The notes below the pieces were generated by a model, which saw nothing but the letters and a program-made list of their open reading frames with translations, searched no databases and was not told the origin of the DNA. A program made the translations under genes and the position numbers. A stretch of 37,856 bases of DNA from Candidatus Methylomirabilis sp. (GTDB taxonomy: Bacteria > Methylomirabilota > Methylomirabilia > Methylomirabilales > JACPAU01): contig DASYVA010000059.1 of the NCBI GenBank assembly GCA_036000645.1, forward strand, positions 1-37,856. Reading direction: 5' to 3'. Positions 19,293 through 26,089 of the stretch are shown here, piece by piece (within the stretch, counting starts at the first letter, position 1; every line of letters starts with the position of its first letter).

Positions 19293-19683
19293 GCCCCACC
19301 AGGTCCCCCTCGGCGTACCGGCTGAGGTGCCGCGGCACGCCGGCGCTGTTTCCGGCGAGGACCTCACCGGTGAGGTTGCTCCAGCGCGCCGGCTGGTTCC
19401 GGGGGTCCCTACATTGCCTGGCCATGGAATCCTCCGAACGCCCGCCGGCACCAGAAAGCCCGAAGACGAGGAGGAGTCTGGAGGGGCATCTCGGGATGGC
19501 GACCGCCGGCTTTAGCGATGGCGCGGTTGCGGAGATCATCGCCGGCGTGGTACAGAAGATCTCCACGGATTATTTCACCCGTGTCGCGCAGACTGAGGTG
19601 GATTTCCCGGCGGCTGTCCTCACCTCCAAGAGGGTTGCCTGACACACCGGCTCGACACTGGCCCGTGCCGCGACGGAGGGAGC
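19293..19683. other. Gene-poor stretch between ispE and msrBA
   Basis: About 390 bp with no gene I can support. Short open frames exist on both strands (for example the plus-strand stretch ending in AVLTSKRVA near 19642, and a minus-strand stretch containing ARWSNLTGEVLAGN), and they read as possible fragments of decayed genes, but none has a start, a ribosome-binding site and a recognisable family together. It contains two perfect palindromes (next entry). It marks the left junction of the accessory block. Confidence 0.5.
19327..19376. repeat. Two perfect palindromes downstream of ispE
   Basis: GTGCCGCGGCAC (19327-19338, 12 bp) and ACCTCACCGGTGAGGT (19361-19376, 16 bp) are perfect palindromes without spacer, their centres about 36 bp apart, starting 35 bp after the ispE stop. 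They could be protein-binding or recombination sites at the edge of the inserted block, or relics of an operator. Short palindromes are common in GC-rich DNA, but a 16-bp perfect one is not. Confidence 0.45.
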
Positions 19684-20676
19684 ATGAAAGCGTTCGTCAA
19701 GCCATCCGACGAGGAGCTCAAGAAGCGGCTGACACCGCTGCAGTACTGGGTGACCCAGGGCGAAGGGACCGAGCCGCCCTTCCAGAACGAGTCCTGGGAC
19801 AACAAGAAGCACGGCCTCTACGTGGACGTGGTCTCCGGCGAGCCGCTCTTCTCGTCACTCGAGAAGTACGACTCCGGCACCGGCTGGCCGAGCTTCACCC
19901 GGCCGCTCGAGCCCGACACCCTCACCACCCGCGAGGACCGCACGCTCTGGATGGCGCGCACCGAGGTGCGATCCAAGCACACCGCCTCGCACCTGGGCCA
20001 CGTCTTCCCCGACGGGCCCAAGCCGACCGGGCTGCGCTACTGCATCAACTCGGCGGCCCTGCGCTTCGTCCCGCTCGAGGAGCTTGCCGAAGCGGGGTAC
20101 GGGGAGTACCTGGCCCGCTTTGAGAAGGCCGGCGTCTTCGGGCAGTCTGGCTCGTCCGAAGAGGGTGGCGCGTCTGGCAGGGACTCGGGGAGGCGCCAGG
20201 TCGCGCTCTTCGCCGGGGGGTGCTTCTGGGGGATGGAGGACATCCTGCGCGGCCTGCCCGGCGTGCTGGACACCGAGGTCGGCTACACCGGCGGGAGCAC
20301 GCCCCGTGCGACCTACGCGCAGGTGAAGGGGGGAACGACCGGCCATGCCGAGGCGATCCGGGTCGTCTTTGATCCGGAGCGGCTGCCGTACGAGCGACTC
20401 CTGGAGACCTTCTTCCGCTTGCACGACCCGACGACCCGGAACCGGCAGGGCAACGACGTCGGCACCCAGTACCGCTCCGCCATCTTCACCCTCGACGAGG
20501 AGCAGCGGCGGATCGCCCAAGAGGTGAAGGCGCGGGTTGAAGCGTCGGGGAAGTGGAAGCGGCCCATCGTCACCGAGATCGTGGCGGCCTCGGACTTCTG
20601 GCCGGCCGAGGAGTACCACCAGGACTATCTCAGGAAAAATCCGGGAGGCTACACCTGCCACTATCTGCGCGACTGA
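19684..20676 (+). CDS. msrBA: Fused peptide methionine sulfoxide reductase MsrB-MsrA
   Basis: A 330-residue two-domain repair enzyme. Residues 1-145 are MsrB (reduces the R-sulfoxide): [19 protein letters not shown], and [11 protein letters not shown] with the catalytic Cys120. Residues about 170-330 are MsrA (S-sulfoxide): [11 protein letters not shown] with Cys180, [24 protein letters not shown], and a C-terminal Cys325 as likely resolving residue. The MsrB part lacks the CxxC zinc pairs (the first would lie at [11 protein letters not shown]) and has Thr instead of Cys in SGTGWPSF. No signal peptide is present, so it is probably cytoplasmic. GGAGG lies just before the ATG. It is flanked by the two ispE copies, so it may have arrived with the event that duplicated ispE. 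Confidence 0.95.
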
Positions 20677-24895: not shown

Positions 24896-25888
24896 ATGGC
24901 ATTCTCCGTCGGCCTCGGCCTGACCAACGAGTGCAACCTCCGCTGCCCCCACTGCTACCGCCCGGACATGCTGGTCGAGCGCCTCTCCCTCCGGGACGTG
25001 CGGCAGGTGTGCGAGAGCATCCCCGTCCGCTCCCTCAACCTTGGGGTCGGAGAGAACGGCCTGCACCCCGAGTACCACGCCATCCTGGACTACGCGGCCG
25101 CGCGGGGGATCACGGCCAGCATCACCTCCAACGGCCTGAGCATCGACGTCCTCCCGGACGATGCCGTCCGGCGGTTCCACAGCGTGGAGTTCTCCCTGGA
25201 TTTCCCCACCGAACGCGAGCACGATGCCTTTCGGGGACGGGGGAACTGGCGGACCGTGATGGCTGCCCTGGAGCGGTGCGCCACGCTGGGGGTGCGGGTC
25301 ACCGTGACCGCCGTGATGATGAGCATCAACTTCGAGCAGCTGCCGGCCGTCGCCCGGGTCGCCGCCGCACGGGGCGCCAGGCTGCGGGTGAACGTCTATC
25401 AGCCGGCGAAGACGGACCGATTCACCCTGACCTACGCGCAGTTCTGGGACGGGTTCCGGCGGCTCCTCGGCGCCACCCGGCTGGTGGCGACGACCGAGCC
25501 GGTCCTGGCGGCGGTTCTCGGCATCGAGGGGTTCGCGGGGCCGGGGTGCGGCCGCTCCACGGTCCGCGTCGCCCCGGACGGCCGGATCCTCCCGTGCACC
25601 TACTGGCCGCACAGCCGCCTGACCCTCGCCGATCTGTGCGCGCTGGGGGAGCGGATCGTCGAGGCGCCCGAGTTCCTGGCGGCTCGCCGGATCCCCGCCG
25701 CCTGCGACGGGTGTCCCTGCCGGGGGGGCTGCGCGGGTCGGCGGGCGCTGGTCGGCAGCCTGGACGCCCCCGATCCCTACTGTCCCTTCGCCCGGAAGGA
25801 CCGGATCGCGCTCTCCTGCGAGCGGGCGGTCGGGGAGGACCTGCCCAAGGTGGGCAGCGCCTGCACGACCGTGGTCTCCGCGGGCTAA
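24896..25888 (+). CDS. Radical SAM protein with C-terminal SPASM-like cysteines
   Basis: A 330-residue radical SAM enzyme. The [4Fe-4S] cluster motif CNLRCPHC (Cys13, Cys17, Cys20) lies in GLTNECNLRCPHCYRPD, followed by the strand NLGVGENGLHPEY in place of the usual GGEP loop. The C-terminal third has CGRSTVRVAPDGRILPC and then a dense cysteine cluster (CDGCPCRGGC ... YCPF), typical of SPASM-type auxiliary clusters. Such proteins modify peptides, sugars or alcohols. The ATG at 24896 has GGAGGAGG just before it, favoured over an upstream in-frame start inside the previous gene. Its stop codon lies inside the left arm of the inverted-repeat block at 25883. The substrate is unknown; a sugar or peptide linked to the surface glycan is a guess. 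Confidence 0.9.
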   Translation: MAFSVGLGLTNECNLRCPHCYRPDMLVERLSLRDVRQVCESIPVRSLNLGVGENGLHPEYHAILDYAAARGITASITSNGLSIDVLPDDAVRRFHSVEFSLDFPTEREHDAFRGRGNWRTVMAALERCATLGVRVTVTAVMMSINFEQLPAVARVAAARGARLRVNVYQPAKTDRFTLTYAQFWDGFRRLLGATRLVATTEPVLAAVLGIEGFAGPGCGRSTVRVAPDGRILPCTYWPHSRLTLADLCALGERIVEAPEFLAARRIPAACDGCPCRGGCAGRRALVGSLDAPDPYCPFARKDRIALSCERAVGEDLPKVGSACTTVVSAG

Positions 25889-26089
25889 TGCAAAAGACAT
25901 GAATGGTGTGACACACGGTCCGGGTGGCGCCGGATGCCGCCCGAAGGCCCCCGGTGCGGAGGGGGGGCCCATCGGCTCTGGGCCGATGGGGGGAACCACG
26001 GGAGGGTTCCCCAGGGGGGCCGGGGGCCGGGGCGGCGCCGGCGACAGGACCCGGACGGTGTCATTTTCATTCTATCGTTTGTATTAGCC
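25883..26089. repeat. 207-bp block with long inverted arms and internal hairpins
   Basis: The left arm (25883-25925) and right arm (26049-26089) are reverse complements at about 33 positions with a few short gaps; matched blocks are GGCTAAT, CAAA, GAATG, TGACAC and GTCCGGGT. The interior is extremely GC-rich and holds two adjacent perfect hairpins: CCCATCGGC/GCCGATGGG (25968-25990, 5-nt loop) and GGGGAACC/GGTTCCCC (25990-26012, 7-nt loop), plus GGCGCC pairing across (25926-25931 with 26034-26039). The arms are less GC-rich than anything nearby. It fills the space between two radical SAM genes, starting at the stop codon of the first and ending 9 bp before the ribosome-binding site of the second. 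It could be a MITE-type element, a large structured RNA, or a terminator/attenuator. Confidence 0.7.

Follow-up and report, generated by a model that had tools for sequence, protein, structure and literature searches.

Bacterial MITEs have, to our knowledge, usually been regarded as empty transposon ends. Structured RNA has been repeatedly tied to mobile DNA, as with HEARO and other transposon-borne RNAs in Rfam. Several described families come close to the element reported here. RUP of Streptococcus pneumoniae is a MITE mobilised by IS630-Spn1 that targets TA and is reported to lack other signatures of structure or function (PMC2229807). The Correia/NEMIS and ERIC elements are MITEs bounded by TA, transcribed into long stem-loops that can influence adjacent mRNA; the same source lists them for Neisseria and enterobacteria only, and describes no three-way-junction core in common with elements that have other termini (PMC2229807). 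MITEPsy1 is an IS5-type MITE that inserts at CTAG or YTAA and generates a 4-bp target duplication (PMC3189936), and the BOX elements of S. pneumoniae are MITEs with a suggested T-box-like RNA motif inside (PMC10969869).

The present element lies between two radical SAM genes in a 37,856-nt stretch of DNA from Candidatus Methylomirabilis sp. (contig DASYVA010000059.1; hereafter the window). It resembles RUP in its size class (~100-200 bp), its intergenic, multi-copy occurrence, its TA target and, for its sister elements, IS630-related ends (PMC2229807), but it occupies CTAG and stop-codon sites in a GC-rich genome and carries a structured core that recurs across phyla and end types. With Correia/NEMIS and ERIC it shares the TA borders and a predicted long stem-loop, and with MITEPsy1 the preference for CTAG (PMC3189936), although it duplicates only TA (2 bp) and MITEPsy1 has no reported shared structured core. 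Like BOX it is a MITE with a putative interior RNA motif, but its core matches neither the T-box nor any other Rfam family and spans phyla and end types. Like HEARO it places a putative structured RNA on mobile DNA; unlike HEARO-type RNAs, it has no meaningful Rfam score, and the elements have inverted-repeat ends and target duplications. No description of the element was found in the searchable open-access literature. What is known is a MITE akin to RUP, Correia and ERIC, and what is distinctive is a covarying fold carried on unrelated ends in three phyla.

The insertion between two radical SAM genes

Both genes lie on the + strand. The upstream one (PF04055; 24896-25888) encodes a protein ending ...VVSAG*, and its stop codon was the insertion target; the downstream radical SAM/SPASM gene (PF04055, PF13186; 26109-27116) has a start region unaltered by the insertion. 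The inserted DNA, with the ends C-TAATGC...GTATTA-G, spans 25885-26087, that is, 203 bp including its CTA and TAG edges, an extent set by empty sites and by copies from the genus that measure 195-207 bp, most of them 203 bp long with CTA...TAG edges. The target TA is present twice, at 25886-25887 and 26085-26086, and the element proper occupies 25888-26084 (no strand is assigned to the insertion or to the TA duplicates). The upstream gene stops at TAA (25886-25888, +), which is composed of the target TA and the first base of the element, in agreement with the initial annotation, which had the left arm supply this stop.

Joined flanks of the window copy and of other copies were matched against relatives. 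The radical SAM gene pair was recovered without the element in seven of them, and the empty sites at loci L225-L231 and L235 have a single TA in this place. In the closest relative (G002), whose downstream protein is 80% identical, the orthologous upstream gene ends ...aggTAG, 21 nt before the downstream ATG (L225), and the same 21-nt spacing separates the right-hand TAG from the downstream ATG in the window. Because this closest empty site reads TAG, the insertion point lies at the TA of the TAG that terminated the upstream gene; TA was duplicated, the stop became TAA and neither protein was altered. Empty counterparts of other copies likewise have TA where the flanks join (L043/L069; L060/L018, at CTAG; L132/L078), so that the search for empty sites that had been proposed at the outset yielded precise ones, with TA duplication in the filled state, at several independent loci. 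A copy in a related genome (G001, L051) has its matching empty site inside the window itself, at ~19590 (19376-19703), and the window therefore shows one filled and one empty site of the same element family.

The left terminal inverted repeat or outer arm, ATGCAAAAGACATGAATGGTGTGACACACG, lies at 25888-25917 (+), and the right one, ATACAAACGATAGAATGAAAATGACACC in the letters of the minus strand, at 26057-26084 (-). Both were delimited from conserved ends and arm alignment, and the terminal ends CTAATRCAAACGA are conserved in four genomes. Inside the arms, GTCCGGGT (25918-25925, +) pairs with ACCCGGAC (26049-26056, +) to form P0a, as given by the fold and by the alifold consensus of 48 copies. 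An internal loop follows, with GG on its left side (25926-25927, +) and ACAGG on its right side (26044-26048, +); both sides recur in Elusimicrobiota copies and in a second repeat family of the same genome (family B, below). The reverse-complementary arms of 43 and 41 nt first noticed at 25883-25925 and 26049-26089 align as described, with few mismatches or gaps. Their GC contents are 0.51 and 0.44, whereas the core reaches 0.83 and the window as a whole 0.71 (the host genome, a Candidatus Methylomirabilota, is at ~71%); the claim that they are AT-richer than all surrounding DNA holds locally, but window stretches near 5.6, 7.0 and 15.2 kb equal them. The self-complementarity score of the locus is 46, as against a mean of 16.6 and a maximum of 31 in ~500 random 207-bp stretches of the window. 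A promoter scan of the arms for outward promoters (TTGTCA...TATTAG) gave none. Short, non-coding and bounded by inverted ends, the 203-bp insertion is smaller than a transposase gene.

Copies, target sites and transposase partners

The source genome (2.67 Mb in 239 contigs) carries ~12 further near-complete copies at 86-93% identity (85-93% over its copies in general) and, counted by the core, 19 copies, plus partial and core-less ones. Partial copies are many and often stand at contig ends, the places where repeats interrupt assemblies. The element is present in all four genomes of the genus examined, with 19, 48, 4 and 25 core copies detected by the core covariance model, which found no match in 91 other genomes of the phylum, and the named records that contain it are Candidatus Methylomirabilota MAGs. 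The search of the genome and its relatives recommended by the initial annotation thus returned the many dispersed copies per genome typical of a MITE. Core-less copies of ~100 bp retain the ends and the GG/ACAGG internal loop; since that loop belongs to the conserved fold, these short copies look like deletion derivatives.

The target across the genus is CTAG, mostly at stop codons. Among 53 copies with both ends assigned, 40 start with CTA and 43 end with TAG. A gene ends in stop-codon phase at 36 of 49 copies, against 66 of the 169 CTAG sites that carry no copy (odds ratio 4.3, p 3.5e-5), counts that are approximate in that genes were called by a simple codon-usage score. Stop-phase genes abut copies from either side, either end of the element supplies a TAA to genes running into it, and the element faces either way with respect to its neighbouring genes, in balanced numbers. 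A CTAG target combined with selection against intragenic insertions is the simplest reading of this pattern. At three loci (L055, L127 and L110) the CTAG target sits at the exact centre of a palindrome, for example ccggggggcggcca-CTAG-tggccgccccccgg, a setting that resembles insertion into hairpins of the terminator type.

The same genome (G000) also contains the family B repeats (C190:1522-1663, C146:8601-8742 and C4:10264-10405; L144, L145 and L139). They have the CGGGTGGCGCCGG...CCGGCGACAGGACCCG internal-loop stem in common with the element and differ at the tip, which consists of CGGAGTGGGACC, a long hairpin and CGGGTGACGGAGCCCG; family B probably belongs to this fold as a distant member. 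Class-level BLAST outside the genus returned mostly chance GC-rich matches, although one match in another family of the class (L134, genome G073) may be a distant relative.

The fragmentary assemblies of the genus yielded no autonomous partner bearing the ends of the window element. The only DDE_3 match in its own genome is a truncated IS630-type transposase at a contig edge (G000 C23:12-323, L240), which lacks the MITE's ends, and the assignment of the window element to IS630 therefore rests on its CTAG-type target and TA duplication. Sister elements do have an IS630 partner. The Elusimicrobia genome G095 contains a gene for an IS630 transposase (NF033545 above cut-off) that lies between ends TAGTATACGCGGCGATAAATTCG, inserted in C-TA-G, and core-bearing MITEs of this genome have ends near-identical to those of the resident IS630 (TAGTATACGCGGCGATAAATTCG versus TAGTATATGCGGCGATAAATTCG). 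The same genome holds a second type of core-bearing MITE, with GTAACCGTTCA ends (GTAAC) and 8-bp duplications (AAACGGAG, GGCAATTC), as well as a core-less copy of this type with the duplication AAAATAAA; these are not TA elements. Their GTAA ends and 8-bp duplications would fit IS66, but no PF03050 transposase was found in G095 and IS66 was set aside as their mobiliser. Arms and target duplications hence differ between lineages and even within this one genome, the core being carried on at least two end types in G095 and, in the genus of the window element, on ends of a third kind.

The folded core in three phyla

The conserved 83-nt core lies at 25946-26028 (+), where it is matched by covariance model R1 (cmsearch, E 1.7e-18), and is RNA-like, with covariation across phyla. 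It forms a three-way junction with conserved unpaired bases, to which the outer internal loop is added. On the + strand, P1 (25946-25953/26021-26028) encloses the single-stranded GTGCGGAGGGGGGG (25954-25967), P2 (25968-25976/25982-25990), P3 (25991-25997/26005-26011) and a second single-stranded stretch (26012-26020). The two adjacent hairpins reported in the initial annotation are both there, that at 25968-25990 having 9 bp and that at 25991-26011 having 7 bp, or 8 with a flanking G-C pair. The latter, the P3 hairpin GGGAACC-ACGGGAG-GGTTCCC (+), comprises the most conserved 21 nt. Folded as RNA, 25886-26086 reaches -128.4 kcal/mol (z = -8.3), a value equalled by none of 200 shuffles.

The 21-nt hairpin GGGAACCACGGGAGGGTTCCC is found exactly in genomes of Methylomirabilota, Elusimicrobia and Omnitrophica, within a common arrangement of CCCC-GTAGCGGAxxGGxGG, a variable hairpin, the 21-nt hairpin and GGGG, set between differing arms. 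Because the 21-mer served as bait, part of the invariance that it shows in the first set stems from that choice; this does not apply to the remaining positions. The core occurs in Elusimicrobiota (41 of 295 genomes, with at least 10 copies in many of them) and in Omnitrophota (3 of 384 genomes), a patchy distribution which suggests that it has spread horizontally and that Elusimicrobiota are its main home. The unpaired GCGGA, the loop ACGGGAG and the ACAGG are kept across all three phyla, on differing ends. Rfam 15, searched with the window copy and 12 diverse loci, gave only chance matches far below the cut-offs, none at or near a gathering score, which bears out the earlier impression that no known RNA class is matched. 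The core was not matched in phage and plasmid collections, and three pattern matches in viral contigs all lacked the surrounding fold. Two further arrangements were observed. At L119:1032-1278 (Elusimicrobia JACQPF01), two inverted cores stand ~90 bp apart, with stems that differ from each other while each matches internally. In the Elusimicrobiota genome G312, whose flanks are AT-rich, copies L244-L251 also agree over long flanking sequence outside the arms, as though the core belonged to a larger repeat.

Compensatory change goes beyond controls. In R1, 13 of 24 pairs show two-sided changes, and among 60 model-found copies 92.4% of cells are paired, compared with 71.9% after shuffling, with a covariation score of 0.457 against 0.126; the fold and covariance-model analyses suggested initially thus gave a fold that beats shuffles and covaries across phyla. 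The outer stem, which lies outside the search model, adds information on the strand. In Elusimicrobiota and Omnitrophota copies its + strand wobbles comprise 74 G.U and 20 A.C (p 2e-8), or 21 and 3 when counted by genome (p 3e-4), an excess of G.U over A.C as expected under selection on one strand; copies of the window's genus are too alike to reveal such a bias. Within each of genomes G348 and G321, moreover, the outer stems of separate copies differ by compensated changes. Neutral drift or palindrome correction would produce equal numbers of G.U and A.C, and the excess therefore points to one strand that folds when single-stranded, most simply the + strand acting as an RNA. The G.U excess could also be mimicked by a mutation process biased towards one strand, but copies face either way with respect to genes. 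Between lineages the TAGCGG strand and the P3 loop co-vary (TTGCGG with ACGCAAG, TAGCGG with ACGGGAG); a pseudoknot between them was considered, but the pair counts are not above those of shuffles and it stands as a lead only.

Competing readings and the proposed role of the core

We consider it probable that the locus is a TA-duplicating, IS630-like MITE inserted in a TAG stop and carrying a conserved structured module with a putative RNA role at the level of the element. The mobility of the element is well supported; an RNA function of the core is putative, and we infer it from the fold. Of the options raised by the initial annotation, two hold in part, the MITE through its dispersed copies, inverted ends, TA empty sites and the IS630 partner of its sister elements, and the new structured RNA through an interior that is a cross-phylum covarying fold missing from Rfam; a dedicated cis-acting RNA that governs the ratio between the two radical SAM enzymes is not supported.

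The best-surviving rival is that of an ordinary MITE, in which the core would be a passenger inherited from a master copy and its hairpins would be kept by quasi-palindrome correction, that is, template switching between the arms during replication. Mobile core-less copies, the near-identity of copies in the window's genus and the random orientation relative to genes all fit such an element. Correction of this kind would, however, erase conserved internal loops and give no bias of G.U over A.C, and a passenger would not be expected to keep GCGGA, the ACGGGAG loop and ACAGG in three phyla despite differing ends; we regard this explanation as unlikely. Still less probable is a core that serves as a single-stranded DNA hairpin for a replication- or recombination-linked enzyme. 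Single-stranded recombination sites are typically imperfect hairpins with conserved extrahelical bases, which the core resembles, and recognition of single-stranded DNA would favour one strand just as an RNA would; against this, the insertion pattern is TA-duplicating and of the double-strand type, the same core sits on two differing end types, and no partner enzyme was found near the copies. Least probable is a tuning of the radical SAM operon by a cis-acting RNA: the element would be in the transcript of its two co-directional neighbours, and its hairpin could affect mRNA decay as reported for ERIC and Correia copies (PMC2229807), but orthologous pairs lack the element in seven relatives and it stands at dozens of unrelated places, so that a dedicated radical SAM regulator is largely refuted, the empty sites contradicting such a role.

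In the reading that we favour, the MITE entered CTAG, composed of the last sense base C and the TAG with which the upstream radical SAM gene stopped, duplicating TA and converting TAG to TAA with neither protein changed. Its + strand would act as an RNA, made mostly when transcription of neighbouring genes reads through the element; this RNA would fold and probably bind a conserved host or transposition factor, so favouring persistence of the element or softening its impact on host transcripts. Such partner binding upon transcription, to the benefit of the element, is suggested by the conserved unpaired bases; the function would lie at the element level and would not be tuned to the radical SAM operon. 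Since copies lie in both orientations, about half of them would lack any cis-acting RNA function, and the existence of core-less copies means that the core is not needed for mobility. Balanced orientation and mobile core-less copies together show neither a required cis effect nor a need in transposition.

A wider possibility, which we put forward tentatively and at somewhat less than even weight, is that the core is a portable structured-RNA module of a new class, which MITEs in three phyla, with at least two end types unrelated to each other, have taken up for the advantage that the RNA gives them. Any such advantage could come from binding a host factor in read-through transcripts, or from acting with the transposition machinery. 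The mode of insertion is itself harmless, as CTAG falls mostly on TAG stops in this GC-rich genome and the ends of the element restore TAA on either side. The evidence for a selected RNA fold is strong, extending over tens of Elusimicrobiota genomes, a few of Omnitrophota and one genus of Methylomirabilota. With ends that vary by lineage around a constant interior, the question of whether some MITEs act as vehicles for selfish or useful RNA becomes a testable one.
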